Shown here: one piece after another, positions 12,511 through 57,922 of the stretch
Layout of the letters: each line of letters starts with the position of its first letter
Numbering within the stretch: position 1 is the first letter of the stretch
Assembly: GCF_000786695.1 (NCBI RefSeq)
Contig: NZ_CP009962.1
Location: 4,526,001-4,590,000 of the forward strand
Reading direction: 5' to 3'
Length of the DNA stretch: 64,000 nucleotides
From: Collimonas arenae
GTDB lineage: Bacteria > Pseudomonadota > Gammaproteobacteria > Burkholderiales > Burkholderiaceae_D
The notes under the pieces: generated by a model
Told to the model about the DNA's origin: nothing
The model's database searches: none
Seen by the model: the letters and a program-made list of their open reading frames with translations, nothing else
Position numbers and translations under genes: made by a program

Positions 12511-12611
12511 AGGACTTACGCAAAATTTCGTCAACAAGGCATGCCGACGAAGATAGTACGAAGGTACAGCCAGGAGGCATAACGCCGCTGGCGGAATTTT
12601 GCGTAAATCCT
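12511..12611 (+). repeat. Nested-hairpin element R1 (core family I)
   Basis: Outer arms 12511-12530 and 12592-12611 pair at 18 of 20 positions plus one G-T. The core contains CCGACGAAGATAGTACG, an inner hairpin GTAC-GAAG-GTAC (12556-12567) and CAGGAGGCATAACGCC. It lies 53 nt after the TauE/SafE stop and 49 nt before cysI. Confidence 0.85.
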
Positions 12612-12660
12612 ACGTATAAAGGCGTGGCGCCGTTAGCCACAACCCATAAGGAAGACAAAG

Positions 12661-14355
12661 ATGTATCGTTACGATCAATACGATCACCAGATAGTCAAGG
12701 AACGGGTCGCCCAGTACCGCGACCAGGTACGCCGCCGTTTGGCGGATGAATTGACGGAAGAAGAATTCCTGCCGCTGCGCTTGCAGAACGGCCTGTACAT
12801 GCAGCGTCACGCTTACATGCTGCGCGTCGCCGTGCCTTACGGCATGCTGTCGTCGGCGCAAGTGCGCATGTTCGGGCATATTGCCCGCACCTATGATCGC
12901 GGCTACGGCCACTTCACCACGCGCCAGAACATCCAGTTCAACTGGATCAACCTGGAGCAGTCGCCGGACATCCTGGCAGAACTGGCGACGGTGGAAATGC
13001 ATGCGATCCAGACCTCCGGCAATTGCATCCGCAATACGACTTCCGACGAGCTGGCCGGCGTTGCCGCTGACGAAATAATCGATCCGCGTCCCTACGCTGA
13101 AATCATCCGCGAATGGAGCACTTTCCACCCCGAGTTCGCCTATCTGCCACGTAAATTCAAGATCGCTATCAGCGGTTCGGAACAAGACCGCGCCGCTACT
13201 GCGGTACATGACATCGGCCTGCATGTGGTAAAGAATGCGCAAGGCGAAGTCGGCTTCCGTTTCCTGGTTGGCGGCGGCATGGGTCGTACGCCCATCATCG
13301 GCAGCGTGATCCGTGAATTCCTGCCTTGGCAACATGCCCTGACATATCTCGAAGCGATCCTGCGCGTCTATAACCAATACGGCCGCCGCGACAACAAGTA
13401 CAAGGCCCGCATCAAGATCCTGGTGAAAGCGCTCGGCGCGGAAGAGTTCGGCCGCCAGGTCGAAGCCGAATGGGCGGAGATCAAGGATGGTCCGGCGACA
13501 TTGACCGTGGAAGAATTGCAGCGGATTGCGCAATACTTCGTGCCGCCGCCTTACGCAACGCTGCCAGCAAGCGATGCCGGATTCGAAGCGCATAAAGCGG
13601 ACAACAAGGCGTTCGCCAACTGGCTCCTGCGCAATGTCAAAGCGCACAAAGTAAGCGGCTATGCTGCGGTTATTTTGTCGGTCAAGAAAACCGGTGTCCC
13701 GCCTGGAGACATTACCGCCGCACAATTGGATTTCGTCGCCGACCTGGCTGACCAGTACAGTTTCGGCGAAGTGCGCATCACCCATGAACAAAACCTGGTG
13801 CTGGCCGACGTCAAGCTAAGTGACTTGTTCACGGTGTGGCAGGCGGTCAAGGCGCAAGGCCTGGCGACGCCGAACATCGGCCTGCTGACCGATATCATCT
13901 GCTGCCCCGGCGGCGATTTCTGCTCCCTGGCAAATGCCAAGTCGATCCCGATCGCACAAGCCATTGCCGAAAAATTCGACAACCTCGATTTCCAGCATGA
14001 CATTGGTGAAATCGAACTGAATATCTCCGGTTGCATCAACGCCTGCGGTCACCATCATGTCGGCAATATCGGCATTCTCGGCGTCGACAAGGACGGTTCT
14101 GAGTGGTATCAGGTATCCATCGGCGGCGCACAAGGCAACAACACCAGCATCGGCAAGATCATCGGCCCGTCGTTTTCGTCGCAGCAGATGCCTGTCGTAA
14201 TCGAACGCCTGCTGGATGTCTACGTGAAGCAACGCACCGAGGAAGAGCTGTTTATCGATACCGTACAGCGCCTTGGGATTGCACCGTTCAAGGAATATGT
14301 TTACGCCAGCCCGATTCCGACCGGCCACACCCATGGGGAGGACGCCTGTGTCTAA
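12661..14355 (+). CDS. cysI: Sulfite reductase hemoprotein (nitrite/sulfite reductase)
   Basis: 564 residues. The siroheme-[4Fe-4S] ligands are visible as CCPGGDFC and GCINACGHH around residues 418-424 and 459-463. Both ferredoxin-like half domains are present (FTTRQNIQFNWI in the first, RITHEQNLVLADV in the second). It reduces sulfite to sulfide with six electrons in the cytosol. It heads a six-gene operon with DUF934, cysH, cysD, cysN and cobA. The single-subunit beta-proteobacterial form lacks an adjacent cysJ flavoprotein, so the electron donor is probably another ferredoxin or flavodoxin reductase. Confidence 0.92.
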   Translation: MYRYDQYDHQIVKERVAQYRDQVRRRLADELTEEEFLPLRLQNGLYMQRHAYMLRVAVPYGMLSSAQVRMFGHIARTYDRGYGHFTTRQNIQFNWINLEQSPDILAELATVEMHAIQTSGNCIRNTTSDELAGVAADEIIDPRPYAEIIREWSTFHPEFAYLPRKFKIAISGSEQDRAATAVHDIGLHVVKNAQGEVGFRFLVGGGMGRTPIIGSVIREFLPWQHALTYLEAILRVYNQYGRRDNKYKARIKILVKALGAEEFGRQVEAEWAEIKDGPATLTVEELQRIAQYFVPPPYATLPASDAGFEAHKADNKAFANWLLRNVKAHKVSGYAAVILSVKKTGVPPGDITAAQLDFVADLADQYSFGEVRITHEQNLVLADVKLSDLFTVWQAVKAQGLATPNIGLLTDIICCPGGDFCSLANAKSIPIAQAIAEKFDNLDFQHDIGEIELNISGCINACGHHHVGNIGILGVDKDGSEWYQVSIGGAQGNNTSIGKIIGPSFSSQQMPVVIERLLDVYVKQRTEEELFIDTVQRLGIAPFKEYVYASPIPTGHTHGEDACV

Positions 14356-14878
14356 CGTTGAAATTATCAAGAACCGCACGGTCGTCGCTGACGACTGGAG
14401 CGTACTGCGCCTGAGCGACGGTGAAACACCTGAAAGCGTCAGCATCCCGGCCGGGAAGGTCATCGTGCCGTTCAGCGTCTGGCAAGCCCAGCGTACGCTG
14501 TTGCAAGATCGTGCGCCTTTGGGAGTCTGGCTCGCCAGCGATGCACAAGCCGATGTGTTGAAAGACGACCTCGCGCATTTCGCTGTCATCGCCGTCGATT
14601 TCCCGAAATTTACGGATGGCCGCGGCTATTCGATCGCTTACACCTTGCGCACGCGTTTTGCCTATAGCGGTGAATTGCGCGCCATAGGCGACGTGTTGCG
14701 CGACCAGCTGTTCTACATGCAGCGAGTCGGCTTCGACGCCTTTGCAGTGCGCGCGGACAAGAACATTCACGACGCTCTCAAGGGCCTGACCGATTTCTCG
14801 GAAAAATACCAGACTTCGTGGGATGAGAAAACGCCGCTGTTCCGCCGTGTGAACCGCCAAGCCGTGAGCCAGGGTTAA
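14348..14878 (+). CDS. DUF934 protein of the sulfate reduction operon
   Basis: 176 residues from GTG 14348, chosen because GGGGAGG at 14334-14340 is well spaced; an ATG at 14333 is in frame. It overlaps the cysI stop by 8 bp. The C-terminal part has the DUF934 pattern: DFPKFTDGRGYSIAYTLRTR, then GVLRDQLFYMQRVGFDAF-like sequence. DUF934 genes nearly always follow cysI in beta- and alpha-proteobacteria and are presumed to assist sulfite reductase, possibly in electron delivery; this is not proven. Confidence 0.85.
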   Translation: MSNVEIIKNRTVVADDWSVLRLSDGETPESVSIPAGKVIVPFSVWQAQRTLLQDRAPLGVWLASDAQADVLKDDLAHFAVIAVDFPKFTDGRGYSIAYTLRTRFAYSGELRAIGDVLRDQLFYMQRVGFDAFAVRADKNIHDALKGLTDFSEKYQTSWDEKTPLFRRVNRQAVSQG

Positions 14879-14879
14879 T

Positions 14880-15623
14880 ATGAACAGCCCGATCCTGTCG
14901 CTTCCCGAACTGGTTGCCGCCACCAAGGCGACCCTGGAAAAAATCGCCGCGGAATATACGCCGGCGGTATTTGCCTCCAGCCTGGCGGCTGAAGACATGG
15001 TGCTGACCGATCTGATCCTGCGCAATCAGTTGCAGGACCGGATTGCCATATTCACCCTGGAAACCGGTCGTCTGCACACCGAAACACTGGGCATGCTGGA
15101 CCGCATCAAGGAGACCTACGACTACGACGTCACGCCTTACCGGCCGCAGCCGGAAGCGGTTGCCGCCTACGTCGAAAAAAACGGCTTGAACGCGTTCTAC
15201 GACAGCATCGAGATGCGCAAGGAATGCTGCCGCATCCGCAAGATCGAACCGCTGAACCGCGCCCTGGCCGGCAACAAGGCCTGGATCACCGGCCAGCGCC
15301 GTGCGCAGTCGCAGACGCGGGCCGAGCTGCATGTTCAGGAACAGGATGATGCACATGGCATGAGCAAATTCAATCCACTGGCCGACTGGTCAGAGGACGA
15401 TGTCTGGCAATACATCCGTAGCAACAATGTGCCGTACAACCCGCTGCACGACAAAGGCTATCCGTCGATCGGTTGCGAGCCTTGCACCCGCGCCATCCAG
15501 CCAGGCGAAGATGTACGCGCCGGCCGCTGGTGGTGGGAGAATCCAGAATCGAAAGAATGCGGTTTGCACGTAGTCGATGGGAAATTGATACGTATCAAAT
15601 CCGCCGCTCCGAAAAACGCCTGA
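14880..15623 (+). CDS. cysH: Adenylylsulfate (APS) reductase, thioredoxin type
   Basis: 247 residues. The PAPS-reductase fold shows FASSLAAEDMVL near the N-terminus. Two Cys pairs that ligate a [4Fe-4S] cluster are present: KECCRIRK around residue 115 and GCEPCTRA around residue 200. The catalytic C-terminal Cys is in ESKECGLH. Enzymes with both Cys pairs act on APS directly, so no APS kinase (cysC) is needed, and none is in this operon. It starts 1 bp after the DUF934 stop. Confidence 0.92.
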   Translation: MNSPILSLPELVAATKATLEKIAAEYTPAVFASSLAAEDMVLTDLILRNQLQDRIAIFTLETGRLHTETLGMLDRIKETYDYDVTPYRPQPEAVAAYVEKNGLNAFYDSIEMRKECCRIRKIEPLNRALAGNKAWITGQRRAQSQTRAELHVQEQDDAHGMSKFNPLADWSEDDVWQYIRSNNVPYNPLHDKGYPSIGCEPCTRAIQPGEDVRAGRWWWENPESKECGLHVVDGKLIRIKSAAPKNA

Positions 15624-15654
15624 ATCATCGCTTCACTAAGAGACAAGAACCGCT

Positions 15655-16590
15655 ATGAACACAGTTGTCGAAAAATTTTTCCTGGACAAAGCCGCCAACC
15701 GCCACCTCGACTGGCTGGAATCGGAAGCCATCCACATCATGCGTGAAGTGGCTGCGGAATGCAGCAATCCTGCCCTGCTGTTTTCCGGCGGCAAAGATTC
15801 GGTGGTGATGCTGCGCCTGGCGGAAAAAGCTTTCCGTCCCGGTAAATTTCCTTTCCCGCTGGTACATATCGATACCGGTCACAACTTTGAAGAAGTGATC
15901 ACCTTCCGCGACAAGCGTGTGGCGGAGCTGGGCGAGCGTCTGATCGTCGGCTCGGTCGAAGATTCGATCAAGCGCGGTACGGTGCGCCTGCGCAATCCGA
16001 AGACCGATTCGCGCAATGCGGCGCAAGCGGTGACCTTGCTGGAAACCATCGCCGAGCACAAATTCGACGCCTGCATCGGCGGCGCCCGCCGCGATGAGGA
16101 AAAGGCTCGCGCCAAAGAACGGATTTTTTCCTTCCGCGATGAGTTCGGCCAATGGAATCCGAAAGCGCAACGCCCGGAACTCTGGGACCTGTACAACACT
16201 CGGGTTCATCCGGGTGAAAACATGCGGGTATTCCCGATCTCCAACTGGACCGAACTCGACGTCTGGCAATACATTGCCCGCGAAAAACTCGAACTGCCGC
16301 CGATTTACTTCGCCCATCAACGCCAGGTGATTCCGCGTAACGGCCTGCTGGTGCCGCTGACCGACCTGACGCCGGCGAAAGAAGGCGAAGTCGTGGAAAC
16401 CCGCGAAGTGCGATTCCGCACCGTCGGCGACATTTCCTGCACCTGCCCGGTGGCGTCTGATGCAGCTACCGTTGAAGCCATCATTGCCGAAACGGCCGTG
16501 ACGCAAATCACCGAACGCGGCGCCACCCGGATGGACGACCAAACCTCGGAAGCATCGATGGAAAAACGCAAAAAAGAAGGATATTTCTAA
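15655..16590 (+). CDS. cysD: Sulfate adenylyltransferase small subunit
   Basis: 311 residues, the usual CysD length. The PP-loop is LLFSGGKDSVVMLRLAEKAF near residue 42, and the family motifs GGARRDEEKARAKERI, FPISNWTELDVWQYI and RFRTVGDISCTCPV follow. CysD adenylates sulfate to APS, driven by GTP hydrolysis in CysN. Its stop codon shares a base with the cysN start (TAATG), giving translational coupling of the two subunits. Confidence 0.95.
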   Translation: MNTVVEKFFLDKAANRHLDWLESEAIHIMREVAAECSNPALLFSGGKDSVVMLRLAEKAFRPGKFPFPLVHIDTGHNFEEVITFRDKRVAELGERLIVGSVEDSIKRGTVRLRNPKTDSRNAAQAVTLLETIAEHKFDACIGGARRDEEKARAKERIFSFRDEFGQWNPKAQRPELWDLYNTRVHPGENMRVFPISNWTELDVWQYIAREKLELPPIYFAHQRQVIPRNGLLVPLTDLTPAKEGEVVETREVRFRTVGDISCTCPVASDAATVEAIIAETAVTQITERGATRMDDQTSEASMEKRKKEGYF

Positions 16591-17918
16591 TGAACGCCGT
16601 TGTTAAGACCTTGAACACCGACACCAGCAACGCGCCGCTGGAGCGCGGCTTGTTGCGCTTCATTACTGCCGGTTCCGTAGATGACGGCAAGAGCACCCTG
16701 ATCGGCCGCCTGCTGTTCGACAGCAAGGGCATTTTCGCCGACCAGCTGGACGCCATGTCGCGCGCCAAGCACAAGCGTACGGTCGGCGATACGATCGACC
16801 TGTCCCTGCTGACTGACGGCCTGGAAGCAGAACGCGAACAAGGCATCACCATTGACGTCGCCTACCGTTATTTCGCCACGCCGAAACGCAAGTTCATCAT
16901 CGCCGATACGCCAGGCCACGAGCAATATACGCGCAACATGGTGACCGGCGCCTCCACTGCGGACGCCGTCATCATCCTGATCGACGTCTCCAAGGTAAAA
17001 TTCGGCGACGACGGCAGCGTTGAGTTGCTGACCCAGACCAAGCGTCACTCTACCATTGCGCATCTGCTGCAGATCGAACACGTGGTGGTGGCGGTCAACA
17101 AGATGGATCTGGTCGATTACGACCAGACCGTGTATGACCGCATCGTCGCGGCGTATCTGGAATTCGCCAAACAACTCGGTTTGCGCGATGTGCGCCCGAT
17201 TCCGTTGTCGGCCCTGGCTGGCGACAACGTGGTGGTAGCCGGCGACAAGATGCCTTGGCATAAAGGCCCTACGCTGATCGAACTGTTGGAGTCCCTGAGC
17301 GTCTACGACGAATCGCATGACGAGCCGTTCCGTTTTCCGGTGCAACTGGTGGCGCGCCACAACGGCCATGAAGCCAATGATTTCCGCGGCTATATGGGAC
17401 GTATCGAAGCAGGCAAGGTCAGCAAAGGCGACAAGCTGGTGGTTCAACCCAGCGGCCAGGCCGCGACCGTCAAGGACATCCTGGTGCTAGAAGGCTCGCT
17501 GCAGTCGGCTGTGGTCGGCCAGTCAGTGACCTTGCTGCTGGATGAGTATCTGGACATTTCGCGCGGCGACATGCTGACTTCGGTCGACCGCCCTCCTGCC
17601 CTGCTGAAAACCGTCAGCGCCGATCTGTGCTGGCTGTCGGAAGATGCACTGGACCTGCGCCGTAAATACTGGCTGAAGCACAGCACCAAGCAAACTGCCG
17701 CGCGCATTACCAAGATCGATACCCTGCTTGATATCAACACCCAGGAACGGCGTACGGCAGAGTCGCTCAAGCTGAACGACATTGCTCGCGTTTCATTGAA
17801 CCTGCAGCAAGCGATCGCGGCCGACTCCTACGATGAAATCCGCGCCACCGGCGCCTTCATTCTGATCGACGAAGTCACGCACCAGACCGTCGCCGCAGGT
17901 ATGATTCGCCTCGACTGA
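16590..17918 (+). CDS. cysN: Sulfate adenylyltransferase GTPase subunit
   Basis: 442 residues. GTPase motifs are clear: G1 GSVDDGKSTLIGRLLFDSK near residue 29, G3 DTPGHEQYTRNM near 108 and G4 NKMDL near 165, followed by EF-Tu-like beta-barrel domains. It stops without a C-terminal APS-kinase domain, so this is CysN and not the CysNC fusion, in line with the direct APS reductase encoded upstream. Confidence 0.95.
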   Translation: MNAVVKTLNTDTSNAPLERGLLRFITAGSVDDGKSTLIGRLLFDSKGIFADQLDAMSRAKHKRTVGDTIDLSLLTDGLEAEREQGITIDVAYRYFATPKRKFIIADTPGHEQYTRNMVTGASTADAVIILIDVSKVKFGDDGSVELLTQTKRHSTIAHLLQIEHVVVAVNKMDLVDYDQTVYDRIVAAYLEFAKQLGLRDVRPIPLSALAGDNVVVAGDKMPWHKGPTLIELLESLSVYDESHDEPFRFPVQLVARHNGHEANDFRGYMGRIEAGKVSKGDKLVVQPSGQAATVKDILVLEGSLQSAVVGQSVTLLLDEYLDISRGDMLTSVDRPPALLKTVSADLCWLSEDALDLRRKYWLKHSTKQTAARITKIDTLLDINTQERRTAESLKLNDIARVSLNLQQAIAADSYDEIRATGAFILIDEVTHQTVAAGMIRLD

Positions 17919-17949
17919 CCAGAAACAATTACCAACCGGACCAGCAGCC

Positions 17950-18750
17950 ATGCAAGCCACTCACTCAGCCAGCGATCAAACCCACTCTCCTTACGGTAAG
18001 GTCTATCTGATCGGCGCAGGCCCTGGCGCCGCCGATCTGATTACGGTGCGTGGCGCCCGCCTGCTGGCGCAGGCCGACGTGGTGTTGCACGATGCCTTGG
18101 TGACCGAGGATATGCTGGCGCTCTGCCCGCAAGCCGTGAAAATTGCCGTAGGAAAACGTTGCGGAAAGCTCTCCACGGCCCAGCAGTTCATTAACAAGCA
18201 GCTGGTCGACAATGCACGCAAATATGCATTGGTAGTGCGCTTGAAAGGCGGCGACCCCATGTTGTTCGGCCGTGCCGATGAAGAATTGCGCGCGCTTGAA
18301 AAGCATGGCATCGCAGTGGAAGTAGTACCAGGCATCAGCGCAGCGCTGGCTGCCGCTGCGACTTCGCAACAGCCTCTGACCAAACGCGGCGTCGCACGCA
18401 GCGTGGCGTTCTTTACTTCCAGCACCGCACCCGGCGAATCGAATCAGGTCAACATGCCGAACTGCGACACGCTGGTGCAATACATGGGTGGACGCGAAGC
18501 GGCCGCAACAGCGCAACGCCTGCTTGCGCAAGGCCGCTCTGCTGCAACGCCGGTGGTTGTGGTGGAAAACTGCAGCCGTGATAACCAGCGTATCCTGCGC
18601 TTGCAGTTGGACCAACTGGAACAAGGCCTGCAGCTATGCGATGGGCCTGTGCTGGTGATGATAGGCGAAGCTTTGGCCAGCCGTGCTGAACAGCCGCTGG
18701 AAATTGGTCAGACAGGTGAAAATCAGGCCAAGACCAGGAACGCTGCCTGA
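17950..18750 (+). CDS. cobA: Uroporphyrinogen-III C-methyltransferase (SUMT)
   Basis: 266 residues. SUMT signatures are present: VYLIGAGPGAADLITVRGAR near the start, VVRLKGGDPMLFGR near residue 95 and VEVVPGISAALAAA near residue 125. It methylates uroporphyrinogen III twice with SAM to give precorrin-2, the precursor of siroheme for the sulfite reductase encoded at the head of the operon. It lacks the N-terminal CysG dehydrogenase/ferrochelatase domain; a CbiX-like chelatase is encoded at 21003-21398. Confidence 0.92.
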   Translation: MQATHSASDQTHSPYGKVYLIGAGPGAADLITVRGARLLAQADVVLHDALVTEDMLALCPQAVKIAVGKRCGKLSTAQQFINKQLVDNARKYALVVRLKGGDPMLFGRADEELRALEKHGIAVEVVPGISAALAAAATSQQPLTKRGVARSVAFFTSSTAPGESNQVNMPNCDTLVQYMGGREAAATAQRLLAQGRSAATPVVVVENCSRDNQRILRLQLDQLEQGLQLCDGPVLVMIGEALASRAEQPLEIGQTGENQAKTRNAA

Positions 18751-18755
18751 GCAGC

Positions 18756-18772
18756 GCTGGCCTTGCGCCAGC
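18756..18772. terminator. Possible hairpin between convergent genes
   Basis: GCTGGC-CTTGC-GCCAGC six base-pair stem between the stops of cobA and the convergent 58-residue ORF. No U-tract follows, so termination activity is doubtful. Confidence 0.35.
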
Positions 18773-18777
18773 ACTAT

Positions 18778-18954
18778 TTAACGGGCAATCGACTTGACGT
18801 GCGACTCCGGCGCCAGCGCTTTTTGCAAGACATGGCCCGATTGCTCCAGGCGATCTTCAGGTGACAAAACATTGATCCAGCTAACCAGGCCAACGGCCAC
18901 TCCTGTCAATACCAGGAATACTGCAATTCTTTTATTCAAAAATTCCCATTTCAT
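18778..18954 (-). CDS. Small membrane protein, 58 residues
   Basis: ATG at 18954 with a perfect AAGGAG ribosome site five bases upstream. The product starts MKWEFLNKRIAVFLVL, has a single transmembrane helix to about residue 27 and a polar C-terminal half (SPEDRLEQSGHVLQKAL). Coding is supported by the ribosome site and the helix; no family recognised. It is convergent with cobA, only 27 bp between the stops, and is not evidently part of the sulfur operon. Confidence 0.6.
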   Translation of the reverse strand: MKWEFLNKRIAVFLVLTGVAVGLVSWINVLSPEDRLEQSGHVLQKALAPESHVKSIAR

Positions 18955-19120
18955 TTCTTACTCCTTATTTGCGGTCTTTCCTGCAATTCCAGCTATTGCC
19001 TGCATCCGCTAAATTCCACCGATGCCGCACCAGCAGGAAACTGCCGCATTTAAATAACAACTGTCCCGCCGCCACATGAGATGGCGGCAAAGACCAGTTC
19101 TACATCTTTGTTACCCGGTC

Positions 19121-19339: not shown

Positions 19340-19574
19340 TTCACCTCTTCATGCTTGCTTCGCCAGCGTCGACCATGCGACTGCCTTTGCAAAGCTGATT
19401 CATCATGGAAAGCAATTGTGCAACGCGCCGTTTGGGGCACGTACGACAGCGACGGTAAAAGAGAGATTCGCCAGTCGATTGCAAGCTGGGCAGCTTGGCT
19501 ATCGACACGGGAAAAGTGAGGATAGCTAGGCTGGATCAGACCACTGCAAGCAAACAATTGCTTTACGGTTCTTA

Positions 19575-19693
19575 AGAGGCGATTTCAAAATTAACCTGGC
19601 GTTGTTACATCGGGGCTGCGATCCGCTCCTAGCCGTGCTACTCGCACTGTCTTCGTCGGCGCGCCTAGCCAGCTTAATTTTGAAACCGCCTCT
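19575..19693 (-). repeat. Nested-hairpin element R2 (core family I)
   Basis: Arms 19575-19594 and 19674-19693 pair at 19 of 20 positions. Read on the minus strand the core gives GGCGCGCCGACGAAGACAG, inner hairpin GTGC-GAGTA-GCAC and GGCTAGGAG, then an extra piece before AACAACGCC. The inner stem differs from R7 (GTAC/GTAC) by paired changes. It occupies the 450 bp gap 19340-19790, where no convincing gene is seen. Confidence 0.85.
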
Positions 19694-19718
19694 AAGTATC
19701 TGTGTTACTAAATTTTTG

Positions 19719-32531: not shown

Positions 32532-32712
32532 AGAGGCTGTTGCAAACACAGATCGCCAGGCGCTCCGACGAAGACAGTACGAACAGTACGGCTAGGAGGG
32601 TGCAGCAGGGGTTTCAGACGACACTGTCGTCTGCCTGCGGAACGACCCGGGCTTGCAAGTCCGGGCGCGCCCTGCAAGGGCAACAACGCCAGGTGTGTTT
32701 GCAACAACCTCT
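32532..32712 (+). repeat. Nested-hairpin element R3 (core family I, long form)
   Basis: Arms 32532-32550 and 32694-32712 pair at 18 of 19 positions. The arm is nearly identical to that of R7. The core is CCGACGAAGACAGTACG, inner hairpin GTAC-GAACA-GTAC and GGCTAGGAGGG, then an extra 78 bp with its own hairpins (for example CAGACGACA/TGTCGTCTG at 32615-32633). The right edge meets the prpD stop codon. Confidence 0.85.
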
Positions 32713-34163
32713 TAGATCACATAGAGGTCAACATACTCGTTGACTGCCATGTCTTCCAGCTTTTTCTGATCCAGCGAGACTTCCAGGATCTTCTGTTGCT
32801 GTTTGACCGACAGCTGGCGCGCCAGGTTGATCTTGAACTTGGCTTCCAGCAGCGGAATGCCATCCTTGCGCCGCCGCGCATGGCCGATCGGGTATTCGAC
32901 CACGATTTCCTTGAGCTTCTTGCCGTCTTTGAATTCGATTGTCATTGCATTGGCAATCGAACGCTTCTCAGGATCATGGTAATCCTTGGTGAAAACCGGG
33001 TCTTCGATGCAAACGATCTTGTCGCGCAGGACGTCAATACGTTTGTCCGCAGCGACCTTGTCTTCATAGTCGCCGGCAGTCAGGCGGCCGAAAATCAGCG
33101 GCACCGCCACCATGTACTGGATGCAGTGATCGCGGTCGGCTGGATTATTCAGCGGCCCTTTTTTGTCGATGATACGGATGCAGGCTTCGTGGGTGCGGAT
33201 GGTGATCTTCTTGATGTCCTCGACCGACTTGCCTGCCTTGGCCAACTGGCCGTGCGTGGTCATGGCGGCTTCCACCGCGGTTTGCGCGTGGAATTCGGCA
33301 GGGAAGGAAATCTTGAACAGCACGTTTTCCATCACATACGATGCGTATTTACGCTGGAACTTGAATGGCTGGCCTTTGAACAATACATCGTAGAAACCCC
33401 AGGTCTTGGCGGTCAGCACGGACGGATAGCCCATTTCACCGCTCTTGGCGATCAGCGCCAGGCGCACTGCGCGCGAAGTCGCGTCGCCCGCAGCCCAGGA
33501 TTTACGCGAACCGGTATTCGGTGCATGGCGATAAGTGCGCAGCGACTGGCCATCAACCCATGCCAGCGATACCGCATTCAGGATTTCTTCACGCGCCAGG
33601 CCCATCATTTCCGCCACGACGGCGGTCGACGCAACCTTGACCAACACCACATGATCCAGGCCGACTTTATTGAAAGAGTTTTCGAGAGCGATACAGCCTT
33701 GGATTTCGTGCGCCTTGATCATGGCGGTCAGCACGTCTTTCATCTTCAGCGGCTTCTTGCCAGCGGCGATCGCATTGCGCGCGAGCCAGTCGGCGGTCGC
33801 CAGGATGCCGCCCAGGTTGTCGGACGGATGGCCCCATTCCGCCGCCAGCCAGGTGTCGTTGAAATCCAGCCAGCGGATCATGGCGCCGATATTAAAGGCT
33901 GCCTGGATCGGATCAAGCTGGAATTGCGTGCCTGGTACTTTGGCGCCGTTGGGTACGACAGTACCGGGGACAATCGGCCCCATCAGTTTCTTGCAGGCTG
34001 GATATTCCAGCGCTTCCAGACCACAACCCAAGGTATCGATCAGGCAGTTGCGCGCCGTGTCGTAGGCAACCTTGGATGTGATCTTGTATTTGGTCACATA
34101 GTCGACGATATCGACCAGCACCTTGTCGTATTTTGGGCGGACGTTGGAGATGTGAGCAGACAT
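32712..34163 (-). CDS. prpD: 2-methylcitrate dehydratase
   Basis: 483 residues, MmgE/PrpD family. Features: LIDTLGCGLEALEYPAC near the start, WLDFNDTWLAAEWGHPSDNL with the catalytic His/Asp region, and IKAHEIQGCIALENSFNK. It dehydrates 2-methylcitrate to 2-methyl-cis-aconitate in propionate breakdown. It lies upstream of prpE in the same direction; the pair is only part of the methylcitrate pathway. Confidence 0.92.
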   Translation of the reverse strand: MSAHISNVRPKYDKVLVDIVDYVTKYKITSKVAYDTARNCLIDTLGCGLEALEYPACKKLMGPIVPGTVVPNGAKVPGTQFQLDPIQAAFNIGAMIRWLDFNDTWLAAEWGHPSDNLGGILATADWLARNAIAAGKKPLKMKDVLTAMIKAHEIQGCIALENSFNKVGLDHVVLVKVASTAVVAEMMGLAREEILNAVSLAWVDGQSLRTYRHAPNTGSRKSWAAGDATSRAVRLALIAKSGEMGYPSVLTAKTWGFYDVLFKGQPFKFQRKYASYVMENVLFKISFPAEFHAQTAVEAAMTTHGQLAKAGKSVEDIKKITIRTHEACIRIIDKKGPLNNPADRDHCIQYMVAVPLIFGRLTAGDYEDKVAADKRIDVLRDKIVCIEDPVFTKDYHDPEKRSIANAMTIEFKDGKKLKEIVVEYPIGHARRRKDGIPLLEAKFKINLARQLSVKQQQKILEVSLDQKKLEDMAVNEYVDLYVI

Positions 34164-36710: not shown

Positions 36711-36828
36711 ACGCGCCCGAGTGTGCTTTTATCGGGGTGCATGGCAAGGCGCGACGACGCTGCAGGGTATTCCCTGCAAGGAGAAGCAACGCGGCCAGGC
36801 GCCTCGATAAAAGTGCAATCGGGTGCGT
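36711..36828 (+). repeat. Nested-hairpin element R4 (core family I)
   Basis: Arms 36711-36734 and 36805-36828 pair at 20 of 24 positions. The core has AAGGCGCGACGACG, inner hairpin TGCAGGG-TATT-CCCTGCA (36761-36778) and AAGGAGAAGCAACGCGGCC. It lies in the ntrB-ntrC gap, a junction that is normally tight. Confidence 0.85.
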
Positions 36829-43130: not shown

Positions 43131-43232
43131 AGAGGCTGTTGCAAACACAGCTGGCTAGGCGCGCCGACGAAGACAGTACGAGTAGTACGGCTAGGAGGGG
43201 CAACAACGCCAGATGTGTTTGCAACAGCCTCT
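43131..43232 (+). repeat. Nested-hairpin element R7 (core family I, reference copy)
   Basis: Arms 43131-43149 and 43214-43232 are a perfect 19-bp inverted repeat. Core: GGCGCGCCGACGAAGACAG, inner hairpin GTAC-GAGTA-GTAC, GGCTAGGAGG, GCAACAACGCC. It lies between the two hydroxyproline genes, 9 nt after the dehydratase stop and 20 bp from the reductase ATG. Confidence 0.9.
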
Positions 43233-50293: not shown

Positions 50294-51319
50294 ATGAGTT
50301 TTCAGATAACCGTTCAGCCTAGCGGCCGACAATTTACTTGCGACGAAGGCGAGACCATTCTCAACGCCGCAATACGCGCCGGCGTCGGCCTGCCTTACGG
50401 CTGCAAGAACGGGGCTTGCAGTTCTTGCAAGGGTAAATTACTGGACGGTGAGATCACGCACGGCCCGCATCAGGAAAAAGCACTGCCGGTGAAGGAAGAA
50501 CAACTGGGATTTTCCCTGTTCTGCTGCGCCACGCCGCATTCCGACGTCACCATCGAAGCACGCGAGGTCGCCGGCATCGGCGAATTCCCGGTGCGCAAAA
50601 TGCCGACCCGCATCGCCAAGATCGACAAGGTGGCGGATGACGTGGTGATATTGTCGCTCCAGCTACCGGCCAACGAACGCCTGCAATATCTGGCCGGCCA
50701 GTACATCGAATTCATTCTGCGCGACGGCAAGCGCCGTAGTTACAGCATGGCCAACGCACCTTACAAGGACGAACACCTGACGCTGCATATTCGCCATATG
50801 CCCGGCGGCGTATTTACCGACCAGGTATTCACCACGATGAAAGAACGCGACATCCTGCGCCTGGAAGGGCCGATGGGTACCTTCTTCCTGCGCGAGGATT
50901 CGGACAAGCCGATGGTGCTGCTGGCCTCGGGCACCGGTTTTGCGCCGATCAAAGCCTTGATCGAACAATGTGTTCATACAGGCTCGCAACGACCGATCAT
51001 CTTGTACTGGGGCGGCCGCCGTCCGCAAGACTTGTACATGATGGCGCTGTGCGAGGAATGGGCGGCCACACTGCCCAACTTCAAGTTCGTGCCGGTGATC
51101 TCGAATGCGCAGTCGGAAGATCAATGGACTGGCCGCAGCGGTTTCGTGCACCAGGCCGTGATCGACGATTTGCCCGACTTGTCAGCCTATCAGGTGTATG
51201 CCTGCGGCGCGCCGATCGTGGTCGAATCGGCGCAGCGCGACTTTGTCGCCTTGTGCAAACTGCCGGCGGAAGAGTTTTATGCGGATTCGTTTACTTCGGA
51301 AGCGGATCTGGCGCACTAA
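50294..51319 (+). CDS. 2Fe-2S/FAD oxidoreductase (CDP-6-deoxy-glucoseen reductase-like)
   Basis: 341 residues from MSFQITVQPSGRQF; the longer frame upstream covers the divergent gene. N-terminal plant-type ferredoxin ligands: YGCKNGACSSCKGKL and LFCCATP; then FAD-binding RRSYSMANAPYKD and NADH-binding LLASGTGFAPIKALIEQ. The set is typical of AscD/E3-like reductases and of Burkholderiales genes called CDP-6-deoxy-delta-3,4-glucoseen reductase. No deoxysugar genes are nearby, so the true partner is likely another oxygenase or reductase. Confidence 0.82.
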   Translation: MSFQITVQPSGRQFTCDEGETILNAAIRAGVGLPYGCKNGACSSCKGKLLDGEITHGPHQEKALPVKEEQLGFSLFCCATPHSDVTIEAREVAGIGEFPVRKMPTRIAKIDKVADDVVILSLQLPANERLQYLAGQYIEFILRDGKRRSYSMANAPYKDEHLTLHIRHMPGGVFTDQVFTTMKERDILRLEGPMGTFFLREDSDKPMVLLASGTGFAPIKALIEQCVHTGSQRPIILYWGGRRPQDLYMMALCEEWAATLPNFKFVPVISNAQSEDQWTGRSGFVHQAVIDDLPDLSAYQVYACGAPIVVESAQRDFVALCKLPAEEFYADSFTSEADLAH

Positions 51320-51415
51320 ACGCTGAACCTGTACTGAACGTGCACTGAGGACTGTCGACAACAGCGGCGCAAATATTTTTTGACGCACCACACAAAACGT
51401 CCTAATATTTGCGTC

Positions 51416-51484
51416 ATGAACATGATCAAGACCTTGTTGCGACGCCATAACTCATTACCTTTGCCAGGTAAGCCGTGCGCGTGA
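51416..51484 (+). CDS. Possible 22-residue leader peptide
   Basis: ATG...TGA frame, starting MNMIKTLLRRH and ending GKPCA. It precedes a terminator hairpin and the aminotransferase gene. No clear ribosome site and no run of one amino acid, so attenuation is only a possibility. Confidence 0.25.
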   Translation: MNMIKTLLRRHNSLPLPGKPCA

Positions 51485-51503
51485 CCGCTGCCTGATCACG
51501 AAG

Positions 51504-51531
51504 CCACAGGCGATGCCTGTGGTTTTTTTTT
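51504..51531 (+). terminator. Intrinsic terminator ahead of the aminotransferase
   Basis: CCACAGGC-GAT-GCCTGTGG followed by nine T. It lies 23 bp before the aminotransferase ATG and 185 bp after the reductase stop. Confidence 0.8.
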
Positions 51532-51553
51532 GCCCTTTTTCTAGGAGCTTGCA

Positions 51554-52756
51554 ATGGAATTCAATCAGTACCCCGTCAACGACCTGATGTATATCACTAA
51601 CCGCCCGCCCCTGGTGTTTACCGAGGGCGACGGCATGTGGATGACGGATCATACCGGCAAGCGCTACCTGGATTATTTGCAGGGCTGGGCGGTCAATGCG
51701 CTGGGCCACTCGCCGCAATGCATTCAGGACGCCTTGCTTGTCCAATCGAAGAAAATCCTGAACCCTTCGCCGGCTTTCTACAATGCGCCATCGATCGAAC
51801 TGGCCAACCTGTTGACCGCCAATTCCTGCTTCGACCGCGTGTTTTTCACCAACAGCGGCGCGGAAGCCAACGAAGGCGCGATCAAGCTGGCGCGCAAGTG
51901 GGGCAAGAAGAACCCGAACCAGGCCGGCCAGAATCGCTTTGAAATCATCACTTTCAACCACAGCTTCCACGGCCGCACGCTGGCAACCATGTCGGCCAGC
52001 GGCAAACCCGGCTGGGATACCATTTTCGCGCCGCAGGTGCCTGGTTTCCCGAAAGCGGAACTGAATGACCTGGCCAGCGTCGAACAGCTCATCAACGATA
52101 AGACGGTCGCGGTGATGCTGGAGCCGGTGCAAGGCGAAAGTGGCGTGATTCCGGCGACGCGCGAATTCATGCAAGGCTTGCGCGAACTGACCAAGAAGCG
52201 CGGCATCTTGCTGATCGTCGACGAAGTACAATCCGGCATGGGCCGCACCGGCGAATTGTTTGCCTATCAGTTATCGGGAGTCGAACCGGATATCATGACG
52301 TTGGGTAAAGGCATCGGCGGCGGCGTGCCGCTGGCAGCCTTGCTGGCGCGTGAAGAAATCGCCTGCTTCGAAGCCGGCGACCAGGGCGGCACTTATAACG
52401 GCAATCCGCTGATGACGGCAGTTGGCGTGGCGGTGATCAAGACCCTGCTGGCGCCGGGCTTCATGCAATCGGTAAAAGACAAAGGCGCTTACCTTCGCGG
52501 CGAGTTGTTGAAACTGACCGAGAAACACGGACTCGAAGGCGAACGCGGCGAAGGCTTGTTGCGGGCGCTGAAGCTAGGCAGCGACATTGGCCCGCAAATC
52601 GTCGATATCGCGCGTGACCTGAATCCGGTCGGCCTGTTGTTGAATTCGCCGCGCCCGAATCTGTTGCGTTTCATGCCTTCGCTGAACGTAACAGTTGCCG
52701 AGATTGATCAGATGATCACCATGCTGTCGGATGTAATCGGCCAGATCAAGAAGTAA
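51554..52756 (+). CDS. Class-III aminotransferase (acetylornithine transaminase type)
   Basis: 400 residues with AGGAG upstream. PLP motifs: [20 protein letters not shown] near residue 95, [19 protein letters not shown] near 215, and the PLP Lys in [16 protein letters not shown] near 250. It looks like ArgD (acetylornithine to N-acetylglutamate semialdehyde) but similar enzymes act on succinylornithine or GABA. It is preceded by a terminator hairpin, so expression may depend on read-through or a promoter inside the gap. Confidence 0.85.
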
Positions 52757-52779
52757 AACTCTCAAAAAATGGGCTATAG

Positions 52780-53262
52780 ATGACGATAAAAAATTTCCTT
52801 GTTTGTTGCCTGGTATTGTTATTGGCAGCTTGCGGCGGCACCGGCTCGGTCCGTCCCGGCTCCGCCGACAACACACCGATCAGCGATAAGGGTAACGATA
52901 TCGTCATCTACTCGCTGGGCCTGATCGACACCAACTACCGCTTCGGCGGCAAAAACCCAGAAGCCGGACTCGACTGCAGCGGCATGGTCAGTTATGTCTA
53001 CCGGCAGGCGGCGGGCCTCAAGGTGACCGGCAGCGCGGCAGATATCGCGCGCCAGGGCCGCCCCATCACCAAAGCCGAATTGCGGCCTGGCGACCTGGTG
53101 TTCTTCAATACCATGCATCGCGCGTTTTCACATGTCGGCATCTATATCGGCGACGGCCGCTTTATCAACGCACCGTCGACCAACGGCAAGGTGCGCATAG
53201 ACCGTCTCGACAACAATTATTATGCAGCGCGATTTGAAGCCGTGCGCAGATACTTCGATTGA
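52780..53262 (+). CDS. NlpC/P60 peptidase lipoprotein
   Basis: 160 residues; signal peptide with lipobox LLAAC, Cys near residue 17. NlpC/P60 domain: catalytic Cys in AGLDCSGMVSYVYRQ near residue 66, His in HRAFSHVGIYIGDGRF near 113 and a third polar residue in FINAPSTNG. It would cleave peptide cross-links in peptidoglycan at the periplasmic face of a membrane. It follows the aminotransferase gene by 23 bp. Confidence 0.88.
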   Translation: MTIKNFLVCCLVLLLAACGGTGSVRPGSADNTPISDKGNDIVIYSLGLIDTNYRFGGKNPEAGLDCSGMVSYVYRQAAGLKVTGSAADIARQGRPITKAELRPGDLVFFNTMHRAFSHVGIYIGDGRFINAPSTNGKVRIDRLDNNYYAARFEAVRRYFD

Positions 53263-53300
53263 TTGCCGCTAGTATCCAGTTCCTAAATAGTTTGAAATAA

Positions 53301-53336
53301 AAAACGCCGTTCCGGCTTATACCGGAACGGCGTTTT
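53301..53336. terminator. Bidirectional intrinsic terminator
   Basis: Perfect stem ACGCCGTTCCGG/CCGGAACGGCGT around CTTATA with A and T runs at the two ends. It serves the NlpC gene and the convergent lpdA. Confidence 0.95.
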
Positions 53337-53386
53337 TATGCCTTGCCTGTTGACGCTGCACTTCCGGGAAAGTGCAGCGCCGGCTC

Positions 53387-55486
53387 TTATTTCTTCTTTG
53401 GAATGAACAGGTCGGTAATCGTCCCCAAACCCATTTCGGCCGCAAACATCGGCGTTTCCGACAGGGTCGGATGGGCATGAATAGTCAGCGCCAGGTCTTC
53501 CAGGTCGGCGCCCATTTCCATCGCCAGCACGGTTTCCGCCAGCAGCTCGCCGGCATTCACGCCAACAATTCCCGCACCGATAATACGCTTGGTGCTTGGG
53601 TCCCACAGCAGCTTGGTCATGCCGTCGTCGCGCCCCATTGCCAGCGCTCGGCCGCTGGCCGCCCACGGGAAATTGGCTTTTTCGAAAGGAATGCCCTTGG
53701 CCTTGGCTTCGGTTTCGGTCAAACCCATCCACGCGATTTCGGGATCGGTGTAAGCCACCGAAGGAATCGTCATGGCGTCGAACTCGACCTTGTGGCCGGC
53801 GATGACTTCAGCGGCAACCTTGGCTTCGTTAGTCGCTTTATGCGCCAGCATCGGATCGCCGCAGATATCGCCGATGGCAAAGATGTGGCTGACGTTAGTG
53901 CGTTGCTGTTTGTTGGCAGGGATGAAGCCACGTTCATTGACGATGACGCCAGCCTTTTCCGCAGCGATTTCCTTGCCGTTAGGACGGCGGCCGACGGCCA
54001 CCAGCACCATGTCGTACAGTTGCGGTTCCGGTGCTGCCGGCGAGCTGCTGTCGGCACCCTCAAAGGTTGCGCGCAGACCTTCTTTCAAGGCTTCCAGCTT
54101 GGTGACCTTGGTCTTCAGGTAAATCGCTTCGTAGCGCTTTTCGATACGTTTTTGCAATGGCTTGACGACATCTCGGTCAGCCGCCGGGATAAGGCCGTCG
54201 GCAAACTCGACCACGGTAACCTTGGAACCGAGAGCGTCATACACGCAAGCCATTTCAAGGCCAATGATGCCACCGCCGATGACCAGCAGTTTCTTTGGAA
54301 TCTGGCGCAGTTCGAGTGCCCCGGTGGAATCGATCAGACGTGGATCGTCGTAGGGGAAGCCTGGAATCCGGGCAACCGAAGAACCAGCGGCGATAATCGC
54401 GTTCTTGAAGCCGACGACCTTCGGACCATCCGCAGTTTCCACGGTAATCGTGTTGGCCGAGCTGAATGCGCCCTTGCCAGTCACGACTTGCACCTTGCGT
54501 GCCTTGGCCAGGCCCGACAAGCCGCCCGTCAGCTTCTTGATGACGCTTTCTTTCCAACCGCGCAGTGCATCGATATCGATTTCAGGAGCCGACATCTTGA
54601 CGCCGAAATGCGCCATTTCTTCTGCTTCAGTGATAACCTTGGCGGCATGCAGCAGCGCTTTTGACGGAATACAGCCAACGTTCAGGCAAACCCCGCCGAG
54701 GCTGGGATAGCGCTCGATCATGACCACGCTCTGGCCGAGGTCGGCAGCGCGGAAAGCCGCTGTATAGCCGCCAGGACCTGCGCCCAGCACCACGGTATCG
54801 CATTCAATATCGACTTTGCCAGCGAAACTGGAAGCGGCAGGAGCTGCAACTACAGGCGCCGCAACCGGCGCGACGGCGGCTGCCGTAGCTGGAGCAGGCG
54901 CTGCGCCACTGGTGGTTTCAAGCAGCACAACCACGGAACCTTCGCCGACCTTGTCGCCGACCTTGACTTTGATTTCCTTGATGACGCCGGCCTGGCTCGA
55001 TGGAATTTCCATGCTTGCCTTGTCGGATTCGACAGTGATCAGCGATTGCTCGACCTTGACCACATCGCCCACCTTGACCATCACCTCGATGACATCGACT
55101 TCCTTGACGTCGCCGATATCCGGCACCTTGATTTCGATAGTGCTTGCAACACCGGCAGCAACAGGCGCCGGCACAGCCAAAGCCGCAGCTGCTGCGGCAG
55201 GTGCCGGAGCGGCCGCAGCAGCAGGCGCTGCAGCTACTGCGGCTGCCGTTGCTGCTTCCAGCACCAGAACCAATGAACCCTCGCTGACTTTATCGCCGAC
55301 CTTGACCTTGATTTCCTTGATGACGCCGGCCTGGTTCGATGGAATCTCCATGCTGGCTTTGTCGGATTCAACGGTGATCAGCGACTGGTCGACCTTGACG
55401 GTATCGCCCACTTTGACCATCAGCTCAATGACTTCCACTTCTTTGACGTCGCCGATATCCGGGACCTTGACTTCAACCATGCTCAT
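53387..55486 (-). CDS. lpdA: Dihydrolipoyl dehydrogenase (E3) with two N-terminal lipoyl domains
   Basis: 699 residues. Two lipoyl domains, residues about 3-77 and 116-190, each with ESDKASM (lysines at 43 and 156), separated by Ala/Pro linkers. E3 core: [20 protein letters not shown] for FAD, the redox disulfide [13 protein letters not shown] (Cys 267 and 272), NAD motif [19 protein letters not shown] and C-terminal HAHPTLSE with the active His. It reoxidises lipoyl groups of E2. E3 with one lipoyl domain is common here; two are less usual. It is the last gene of the pdh cluster. Confidence 0.94.
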
Positions 55487-55548
55487 AGCGTTTGCTCCAT
55501 GCTTGCTCTTCCTGCCGGAAGAAGAAATTATTTATGATGTGACGTTGC

Positions 55549-56130
55549 TTAAAGCTCCGCCTGGGATTTCATTTCAAAACTGTGAATGCGCAACGGCGTG
55601 GCTGAGCTTTTGTCGAATTCGACACCGGCATGTATGCCTATCTCGGCAATCCGCTGAGCGCTGAGATCCTGGTCGTAGACCGCATACATCGCGCCCAGTG
55701 CAAAATTGCGACCGCTGCCGATACCCCAGAAACGATCGAAGCTGAATACTTCGCGATACGAATACACGCCGAAAATACCGTAGGGATTGGCGATCAGCGC
55801 GGTGATCTGCGATGACTCGTAAGGGTCGTCCTCGTCCTCTTTGGTGTTCAGGAAATACTGATCCTTGAGAATGCTGTGCACCTTGGAAAAAGTCTCGAAC
55901 ACATCTTCGCGATTAGTCAGCTTGCAGTCCTCACCCATGCCGGTCAGCAGCTTGCGCATCACCGGAAAATGAGCGGCGGTGCCGGCCAGCGTAATATACG
56001 ACTCGCCAATCTGGAATATCTTGTTGTTGACCTCGTAGGCGTGCGACAAACGGGTATCGCCGAATGTCACCAGCGAATCAGATGCTATCGCGATCTGTCC
56101 ATTTTTTTTGACGACAACACAGGTAGTCAT
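55549..56130 (-). CDS. Proteasome-like Ntn hydrolase (BPH/HslV type)
   Basis: 193 residues from MTTCVVVKKNGQIAIASDS; GGAGAG precedes this ATG, so the 15 extra residues upstream are dropped. After Met removal Thr1 would be the nucleophile; Asp17 is in ASDSLVTFG, a Lys near 36 in NNKIF, and GIGSGRNFALGAMYA matches the HslV/proteasome GSG segment. These show a proteasome-type fold. The closest known type I can name is the beta-proteobacterial proteasome homologue (BPH); that is from memory. It lies between aceF and lpdA with no HslU or other ATPase next to it. Confidence 0.8.
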   Translation of the reverse strand: MTTCVVVKKNGQIAIASDSLVTFGDTRLSHAYEVNNKIFQIGESYITLAGTAAHFPVMRKLLTGMGEDCKLTNREDVFETFSKVHSILKDQYFLNTKEDEDDPYESSQITALIANPYGIFGVYSYREVFSFDRFWGIGSGRNFALGAMYAVYDQDLSAQRIAEIGIHAGVEFDKSSATPLRIHSFEMKSQAEL

Positions 56131-56226
56131 AGTTGCTCTCCATCGGTATGCCAAATGACCGCAAGTGACGTACAAGATCGATCTGCGATGCTTTTCCGCC
56201 AGCTAGTGTGATGATTCGTTCTTTGG

Positions 56227-56343
56227 CAGAACAAGAAAAGCGAAGGATTTTTGTCCCAGACTAGGCGCGTACCGGAGTGATAGTGAACTATCACGAGGAT
56301 GCGCAACGACGTATGGGGCAAAAAGACGAGCTTTTATGTTCTG
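56227..56343 (+). repeat. Nested-hairpin element R8 (core family I)
   Basis: Outer arms start CAGAACA (56227-56233) and end TGTTCTG (56337-56343), with further pairing AAAAGC/GCTTTT and TTTTTG-x-CCCA. Core: TAGGCGCG, inner hairpin GTGATAGT-GA-ACTATCAC (56277-56294), then GAGGATGCGCAACGACG. It is 25 nt after the aceF stop and in front of the proteasome-like gene. Confidence 0.8.
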
Positions 56344-56368
56344 ACAAAAACGAAGCACCACGCCAGTA

Positions 56369-57697
56369 TTACAACAATGTCTTCCGCATGTCGGCCAATA
56401 CGTCAGCCAGATAGACGCTGAAACGCGCCCCCATGGCGCCGTCGACCACGCGGTGGTCGTAGGACAGCGACGTCGGCATCATCAGGCGCGGCACGAACTG
56501 TTTGCCGTCCCAGACCGGTTTCATCGATGCTTTCGACAAGCCCAGGATCGCCACTTCAGGTGCGTTGATGATCGGCGTGAATGCTGTACCACCGATACCA
56601 CCCAGGGACGAAATCGTGAAGGTCGCACCCTGCATGTCGGCCGGCTTCAGTTTGCCGTCGCGAGCCTGGGCAGACAATTCGCCCATTTCCTGCGCGATCT
56701 GGCTGATGCCCTTTTTGTCGGCATCTTTGATCACCGGCACGACCAGGCCATTCGGCGTATCGGCGGCAAAGCCGATGTTGTAGTACTGCTTGAGGATCAG
56801 GTTTTCACCCTTGCCGTCCAGCGAGGCGTTGAACGCCGGGAATTTCTTCAGCGCCGCAACGCTGGCCTTGATCACGAACGCCAGCATGGTCAACTTGACC
56901 GGCGATTTGGCCTTGGCGAAAGCATCATTGGCTTGTTTGCGGAATTCTTCCAGCTCGGTGATATCGGCTTCGTCGAATTGCGTAACGTGCGGGATCATGA
57001 CCCAGTTGCGGTGCAGGTTCGGACCGCTGAGCTTTTTGATGCGCGACAATGGCAGCAACTCGGTCGGACCTTGCTTGCTGAAATCCAGCGATGGCCATGC
57101 CAGCAGATCAAGACCGACGCCGCTGCCACCCTTGCTTGCCGCAGTGCCATTGGTGCTGGCAGTACCTGCAATCACGCTCTTGACATAGTTCTGCACATCT
57201 TCGTGCGTAATGCGAGCCTTGATGCCGGTGCCGGCGACGCGGCTCAGGTCAACGCCCAGTTCACGCGCGAATTTGCGCACCGATGGCGACGCATGCGGGA
57301 TGCTGCCGCTAGCGGCGGCCGGAGCCGCTGCTGCTACCGGAGCAGGAGCAGGCGCCGGTTTGTTTTCTGCGACGGGCGCAGGTGCGGGGGCCGCAGCGGC
57401 GGCTGCCGGCGCCGGTGCTGCAGCAGCTGCCGGGGCGCTGGCTGGCGCCGCCGCGGCCGCATCGGCTTCCAGTACCAGCACTAGTGTGCCTTCCTTGACC
57501 TTGTCGCCCAGCTTGATTTTCAATTCTTTGATCACGCCCGCGTGGCTGGACGGGATTTCCATACTGGCCTTGTCGGATTCGACAGTGATCAGCGACTGAT
57601 CGACTTTTACCGTGTCACCGACTTTCACCATCAATTCAATGACTTCAACTTCACTGACGTCGCCGATGTCCGGGACTTTGACTTCCACCATACTCAT
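56369..57697 (-). CDS. aceF: Pyruvate dehydrogenase E2 (dihydrolipoamide acetyltransferase)
   Basis: 442 residues: one lipoyl domain with ESDKASM (Lys 43), a long Ala/Pro linker, a peripheral subunit-binding domain (SPSVRKFARELGVDLSRVAG, near 138-157), and the acyltransferase domain ending with the catalytic YDHRVVDGAMGARF. It transfers acetyl from E1 to CoA and scaffolds the complex. It is the second gene of the pdh cluster, between aceE and the proteasome-like gene; the gaps on both sides contain nested-hairpin elements. Confidence 0.95.
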   Translation of the reverse strand: MSMVEVKVPDIGDVSEVEVIELMVKVGDTVKVDQSLITVESDKASMEIPSSHAGVIKELKIKLGDKVKEGTLVLVLEADAAAAAPASAPAAAAAPAPAAAAAAPAPAPVAENKPAPAPAPVAAAAPAAASGSIPHASPSVRKFARELGVDLSRVAGTGIKARITHEDVQNYVKSVIAGTASTNGTAASKGGSGVGLDLLAWPSLDFSKQGPTELLPLSRIKKLSGPNLHRNWVMIPHVTQFDEADITELEEFRKQANDAFAKAKSPVKLTMLAFVIKASVAALKKFPAFNASLDGKGENLILKQYYNIGFAADTPNGLVVPVIKDADKKGISQIAQEMGELSAQARDGKLKPADMQGATFTISSLGGIGGTAFTPIINAPEVAILGLSKASMKPVWDGKQFVPRLMMPTSLSYDHRVVDGAMGARFSVYLADVLADMRKTLL

Positions 57698-57805
57698 CGC
57701 TTAGCTCCATTCATTCTGCCCGCTGCGAAGCGCTGGCTTGAGTTTCCCTCTAGAAACATCAAGCCAGCGCGTCCCAACCGTGGAAATTTAAGTACTGCTT
57801 GTTAC

Positions 57806-57922
57806 GGAAGCCCGAAAAACCTACTGCGCGGCGTTATCTCGGCACTGCGATGCTCACCGTACCTCCGTACGGCTGCGCTTCTCCTGCCGAGATTACACCG
57901 CTCGCTACGGTTTTTCGACTCT
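57806..57922 (-). repeat. Nested-hairpin element R9 (core family I)
   Basis: Outer pairing is CGAAAAACC (57813-57821) with GGTTTTTCG (57909-57917), then ATCTCGGCA with TGCCGAGAT. Inner hairpin CCGTAC-CTCC-GTACGG (57857-57872) is perfect. On the minus strand ATAACGCCGC matches R1. It is 20 nt after the aceE stop. Confidence 0.75.

Follow-up and report, generated by a model that had tools for sequence, protein, structure and literature searches.

Among the closest described systems, the YPAL/RU-2 elements of Yersinia and Erwinia are palindromic intergenic sequences of about 170 bp that are missing from some strains and whose targets lie at or adjoining dyad symmetry (PMC2229807, PMC2759123), the repetitive extragenic palindromes (REPs) are dispersed hairpins with GTAG or CGTC tags that are found mainly downstream of genes (PMC3733652), and IS1272 moves by a transposition that replaces inverted repeats (PMC5678879). 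Here we analyse seven hairpin elements (R1 to R4 and R7 to R9; Table 1) in a stretch of 64,000 nucleotides from Collimonas arenae (contig NZ_CP009962.1, positions 4,526,001 to 4,590,000), referred to in its entirety as the window. An earlier note, made from the letters of this DNA, had described them as one dispersed family of nested hairpins with conserved inner motifs and swapped outer arms.

All seven hairpins are present where that note had placed them, with fold energies of -55 to -93 kcal/mol (20 nt of flank included), and the notion of dispersed hairpins whose inner motifs are conserved and whose helices show compensating changes is borne out, many related genomes carrying copies. A single family with freely exchangeable arms is not supported: there are two core families, here termed A and B, and in R1, R2, R3 and R7 the arms represent fixed ends of miniature inverted-repeat transposable elements (MITEs). 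In both families, purine-rich loops are nearly fixed while the helices around them covary strongly.

Core families, loops and helices

A covariance model for family A, a check proposed in the earlier note, was trained on 14 copies, with R4, R7 and R8 among them but none of R1, R2 and R3, and it finds matches in this genome and across relatives. In the window it matches at 12527-12597 (+), 19590-19676 (-), 32552-32614 (+), 36737-36804 (+), 43147-43218 (+) and 56253-56321 (+), R2 being the copy whose orientation is reversed relative to the others. One core for all seven elements, as originally supposed, thus stands for R1, R2, R3, R4, R7 and R8 and fails for R9, which the family A model does not match at E up to 0.01 and which matches instead, at 57812-57917 (-), a separate family B model trained on seven copies, R9 itself among them.

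The family A plan, as computed, consists of an outer helix, a loop with NAG and GC or AC opposite AAC, a short variable helix, a GACGA/AGGAG loop and an apical helix, so that the two purine-rich internal loops oppose NAGGC to AAC and GACGA to AGGAG. In family B, the first loop pair opposes GTAGCGAGC to GCGCAGYAG (in a longer form, CGTAGCGAGC to GCGCAGYAGG) and the second GAGAAGCGCAGC to GTGAGCATCGCAG; these loops are near-fixed, with 58 invariant columns among 7 copies in blocks of up to 12. The loops are the most constant part in families A and B and in the R4-type copies, in which a family A core sits in a long hairpin without MITE ends, and the genome contains 31 occurrences of the motif GGCGCGNCGACGA, compared to 3 of a reversed control pattern.

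Helix covariation, one criterion by which a structured RNA is recognised, goes beyond the controls. Two-sided changes affect 12 of the 16 pairs of the family A core (14 sequences), compared to 8.8 in shuffles, with 4 of 500 shuffles reaching that count, and the covariation score is 0.650, whereas shuffles give 0.263 and slid controls no more than 0.186. For family B (7 sequences), the corresponding values are 18 of 39 pairs against 9.0, and 0.453 against 0.188 and at most 0.092. In the R4-type hairpin, 34 of 42 pairs, predicted from the same 17-sequence alignment in which they were scored, show a kept double change; 10 of the 17 copies belong to genomes in other orders within the class, and wobbles recur in fixed columns (UG in 12/17, GU in 13/17). 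At one locus common to Massilia and Herbaspirillum, both partners have changed in 17 of 41 pairs while the loops are the same (1 to 6 in slid controls). The earlier dictum that pairing and not sequence is kept therefore holds for the helices; for the outer arms it applies to R4, R8 and R9 only, and R9-like copies elsewhere retain a large part of their arm sequence.

At E up to 0.001, the genome of C. arenae holds 102 family A matches, a lower bound because first-look candidates were scored only in part, and 19 family B matches at 14 places, five of them being the opposite strand of the same copy; DNA matches number 29 for R1 and 13 for R9, itself counted. Among relatives, family A occurs in 24 of 40 genomes and 11 of 26 genera, and family B in 19 of 40 genomes and 5 of 26 genera. 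Across the class, under stricter filters, family A is found in 31 of 274 genomes (own included) and reaches distant families. The exact family B pattern occurs in at least 120 stretches; among the matches listed, 33 are from Janthinobacterium and 30 from Massilia, with others from Herbaspirillum, Zoogloea, Ralstonia, Chromobacterium and further genera, and one from Solimonas. One genome of the same family (G019) carries at least 98 B matches, 98 being all candidates scored, and 55 A matches, four of which stand in series on contig C69 with a spacing of 116 bp. Inverted family A pairs about 103 bp apart, reminiscent of REP dimers, occur at G005 155005/155108 and 1653346/1653449, G003 1368051/1368154 and G000 1854730/1854834, as well as in L095 and L096.

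MITE ends and the selected strand

The kinship of the arms is as the earlier note described it: R3 and R7 share an arm, R2 has a variant of it, that of R1 is different, and those of R4, R8 and R9 are unrelated. R1-like copies (type A1) have the ends YAGGACTTACGC and 5-bp direct repeats on both sides, while R2, R3 and R7 (type A2) have the ends GAGGCTGTTGC, with a variant in R2, and copies like them terminate in GAGGC and are flanked by a TTA or TAA duplication. In both types the terminal inverted repeats pair along the whole arm, the ends themselves having served as the search pattern. For A2, the duplication is identical in 25 of 28 flanking 3-mers (shuffled mean 12.6). For A1, 13 of 28 flanking 5-mers are identical and 22 of 28 have at most one mismatch, compared to a shuffled mean of 0.58 that flatters the duplication, because the length of 5 and the shift of 2 were picked after an offset scan; the first test, on adjacent 2-mers, gave no duplication signal (9/25, with 71 of 1000 shuffles as high). 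No target duplication was detected among 105 family B copies, and R4, R8 and R9 have neither A1- or A2-like ends nor a common arm.

Thus, one core rides in two MITE types that differ in their ends and in the length of the duplication, and it is because the A core sits inside both that the arms of R1 look swapped relative to those of R2, R3 and R7. The apparent swapping of arms thus does not go back to a single cause. R9-like copies are found at several congener loci, where much of the element, the arms in part included, is 83-91% identical, which indicates that family B moves too.

Which strand of these hairpins matters can be read from their imperfections. Using a fold restricted to Watson-Crick pairs on either strand, and scoring isolated mismatches on the loop-bearing strand, G.T outnumbers A.C by 97:8 and 94:11, depending on the fold strand, in family A outside MITEs (36 copies), by 19:2 and 20:1 in R4-type copies (9), by 80:30 and 74:27 in family B (62), by 45:16 and 36:14 in A1 (42) and by 22:17 and 21:13 in A2 (39). 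Where different genomes have a copy at a shared site, each copy was counted and none was collapsed, so neither these counts nor those on gene context, stop codons and replication forks given below are independent. An earlier wobble count over all diagonals, swamped by background, had given GT:AC ratios of 176:98 for the A copies then classed outside MITEs (A0), 71:54 for A1, 40:46 for A2 and 152:126 for B. The G.T excess on the loop strand indicates that selection acts on one folded single strand, either RNA or single-stranded DNA, and the count offers a simple test of which strand of a genomic hairpin matters.

Genomic gaps and neighbouring genes

R9 lies between the genes for pyruvate dehydrogenase E1 and E2, and R8 beyond the E2 gene. 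Comparison of orthologous gaps with and without the element, as the earlier note had suggested, shows R8 to be missing from the equivalent gap in 13 congeners and R9 in 14. The R8 gap is occupied by some other hairpin in 13/13 congeners (z -2.8 to -10.2), and in four of these the hairpin is a GTAG...CTAC pair. In the R9 gap (z -1.0 to -8.5 overall), such a pair is present in 4/14, one of them degenerate, and the other ten carry native sequence with z of -1.0 to -3.5, about half no better than shuffles; in one case, judged by eye, R9 looks like an insertion at a TA within the loop that the native sequence forms. These two sites are the only ones that bear on a dyad-symmetric target of the YPAL kind. 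A homologue of R8 is found in seven congeners at one common locus elsewhere, inside a hairpin of about 200 nt.

The pairs GTAGGGTGGGCAC ... GTGCCCACCCTAC fill both the R8 gap (L262, L263, L265, L269) and the R9 gap (L275, L278, L283); they resemble GTAG REP pairs and may be partners of the Y1_Tnp gene of the genus. In the interval between R9 and the E2 gene, a second hairpin is found at 57730-57770 (GCGCTGGCTTGAG ... CATCAAGCCAGCGC), of which congeners either retain the inner portion (TGAGTTTC ... TTCAG or similar) between outer stems that differ, or have a short stem in its place.

Table 1. Hairpin elements of the window, with the evidence for each assignment
Feature	Position	Strand	Evidence
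R1, MITE type A1 with family A core	12510..12612	+	Fold; model match; ends TAGGACTTACGC / GCGTAAATCCTA
R1 left target repeat, TGTAT	12505..12509		Right repeat CGTAT at 12613-12617, 4/5 alike
R2, MITE type A2, arm variant; family A core with an extra insert	19576..19692	-	Model match; TAA on both flanks
R3, MITE type A2, long form with additional inserted hairpin	32533..32711	+	Model match; TTA on both flanks
R4, long hairpin with family A core, lacking MITE ends (R4-type)	36711..36828	+	Model match; 17-copy R4-type alignment
R7, MITE type A2, short form	43132..43231	+	Model match; TAA on both flanks
R8, long hairpin with family A core, lacking MITE ends	56227..56343	+	Model match; gap empty of it in 13 congeners
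R9, family B element	57806..57922	-	Family B model match; gap empty of it in 14 congeners

Copies occupy intergenic gaps, in either direction relative to the genes. In the window, the right-hand TTA of R3 is the stop codon of an MmgE/PrpD gene (32712-34163, minus strand), R4 lies between and antisense to two genes that encode a histidine kinase and a sigma-54 response regulator, R7 lies 9 bp past the end of a proline racemase gene, and the pairing of R8 extends some bases past both limits given. The long A2 form represented by R3, with about 80 nt extra and hairpins of its own, also occurs in L035, L037, L043, L046, L055, L056 and L058. In four R4-type loci (L032, L060, L423, L429), exactly 123 nt separate the core match from the upstream gene's stop codon, and at the far end a conserved CCAGGAT-like stretch resembling a ribosome-binding site precedes the next gene.

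Competing explanations and known systems

We tentatively favour the explanation that the hairpins are non-coding elements which spread in the form of DNA and are kept as folded single strands. Conserved purine-rich loops lie between helices that are free to change while still paired. The A core would have become the interior of two MITE types, each with ends recognised by a different transposase, and the arms of R4, R8 and R9 would differ for other reasons, including drift under pairing. The selected strand would be RNA, which we hold likelier than single-stranded DNA, bound at its loops by a host factor, and copies would survive beside gene ends because the gaps there tolerate hairpins. A bolder version, conceivable but doubtful, is that of a mobile class of Beta- and Gammaproteobacteria that is defined by its folded strand (a hairpin of RNA or single-stranded DNA with conserved loops and free stems) and not by its ends, hitch-hikes in unrelated transposons such as the two MITE types, otherwise persists beside gene ends, and has its loops read by a protein of the host or of the element.

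Several results weigh against the favoured explanation. Type A2 is nearly without strand asymmetry (22:17), a near-balance that fits a young MITE carrying the core as cargo. In six of the seven other shared-locus sets, which are of close relatives, double changes are few or none (6/47, 1/43, 1/44, 4/44, 0/44, 3/74), and one set held a single sequence; the four same-genus B sets kept 2/5, 4/5, 1/3 and 2/3 of their members, the motif pattern having missed the others. The loop strand is not the gene strand, as it should be if it belonged to the mRNA of its neighbours: the numbers of copies with both neighbours in the same versus both in the opposite direction are 23 versus 25 in family B, 11 versus 12 in family A outside MITEs and 0 versus 6 in R4-type copies, which are antisense to co-directional neighbours in 6/6 cases and again, in a wider set of 19 loci, in the 9 for which both neighbours could be called. 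The loop strand also opposes the replication fork in 95/143 A and 33/44 B copies, a lean that a role as RNA does not predict; here the origin was taken at dnaA, where five complete genomes of the genus begin, and the B count leaves out antisense double matches and four weak rows (G012 2594368, G009 4005245, G005 641131 and 2364955), with which it becomes 34/48. Within the own genome alone, the values are 66/102 for A and 8/14 for B. No partner protein was found for the elements, nor any autonomous relative of A1 or A2 among the loci examined, the whole genome not having been searched for one; the sole spacing of about 1.5 kb inside one locus (L042) separates two A matches.

That the loop strand acts as single-stranded DNA, serving as substrate of an HUH/Y1-type transposase in the way REPs serve REP-associated tyrosine transposases (RAYTs), is in our view unlikely, albeit the most serious of the alternatives. 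It would explain at once the selection of one strand, the indifference to gene direction, the fork-linked orientation and the missing duplication in the 105 B copies. The against-fork orientation is seen in both gene settings (both-same 24/39, both-opposite 30/37; 103 elements with loci, from 187), and Y1_Tnp genes are present in 31 of 40 relatives. On the other hand, none of 30 Y1_Tnp loci has an A or B match within 1.5 kb (E up to 1), and the A1 and A2 duplications are typical of DDE transposases. Y1-type enzymes use the lagging-strand template, which the loop strand mostly is not. We read the fork lean as a probable loss of copies whose more stable hairpin falls on that template.

We consider it improbable that the elements act at the 3' ends of the mRNAs of neighbouring genes, as terminators, RNase barriers or stabilisers of the kind proposed for REP and YPAL. 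They do adjoin gene ends, and the R8 gap has a hairpin in every congener compared; in family B, moreover, 16 of the 18 loci that could be measured (about 11 of these 16 distinct) have the stop codon of the opposing gene where the outer helix ends, at a distance of 14-18 nt from the inner motif; both motifs were obtained in 36 of 59 loci. However, the selected strand is equally or more often antisense to the neighbours, and no regular T run was noticed after the hairpins, by eye and not scored. Least probable of all appears an absence of selection, with arm-to-arm copying during replication keeping the palindromes perfect while they spread as plain MITEs or REPs: the A1 and A2 duplications do mark mobile DNA, and A2 is nearly strand-symmetric, but the internal loops, the part that varies least, would be lost through such copying, and it gives no reason for an excess of G.T over A.C confined to one strand.

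If the favoured explanation is true, a widespread structured element with about a hundred copies in this genome has been overlooked because its changing stems defeat sequence searches, the core common to two MITE types raises the question of what a cargo hairpin does for a transposon, and it becomes directly testable whether palindromes of bacteria act at the level of RNA or of DNA, a long-standing question.

As for named families, Rfam has no match in the window at the gathering threshold, and 11 loci searched at E 0.5 gave only three weak, unrelated matches; searches of a library of open papers brought up nothing recognisable as the family A and B motifs. The elements nonetheless share with Rfam families the covarying helices around conserved loops.

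By lifestyle, the nearest system is YPAL of Yersinia, which is likewise palindromic, intergenic and absent from some strains. Homology to YPAL/RU-2 was rejected, as each of eight motif blocks fits the printed RU-2 sequence with 2 to 5 mismatches at best, and that sequence folds with a branched top and has no A or B motifs, unlike the present elements. REPs are 20-40 bp long with a terminal unpaired tag, whereas the elements studied here span about 100-200 nt and have GTAG in an inner loop of family B; an origin from a RAYT/REP system was rejected on the 0/30 count above. A perfect-looking hairpin with TCTGACCCC arms (L159) adjoins the Y1_Tnp gene of one relative (G009). With IS1272, the elements have in common what looks, in the R8 gap, like the exchange of one hairpin for another, but there is no transposase gene here. 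Types A1 and A2 resemble MITEs in being short and non-coding, with terminal inverted repeats, a duplication of constant length and many near-identical copies; they differ in that one inner core is common to two types and that elements outside A1 and A2 do without such ends. What sets this system apart is the presence of one core in two MITE types, together with an architecture of fixed loops and free stems that is selected on one strand.

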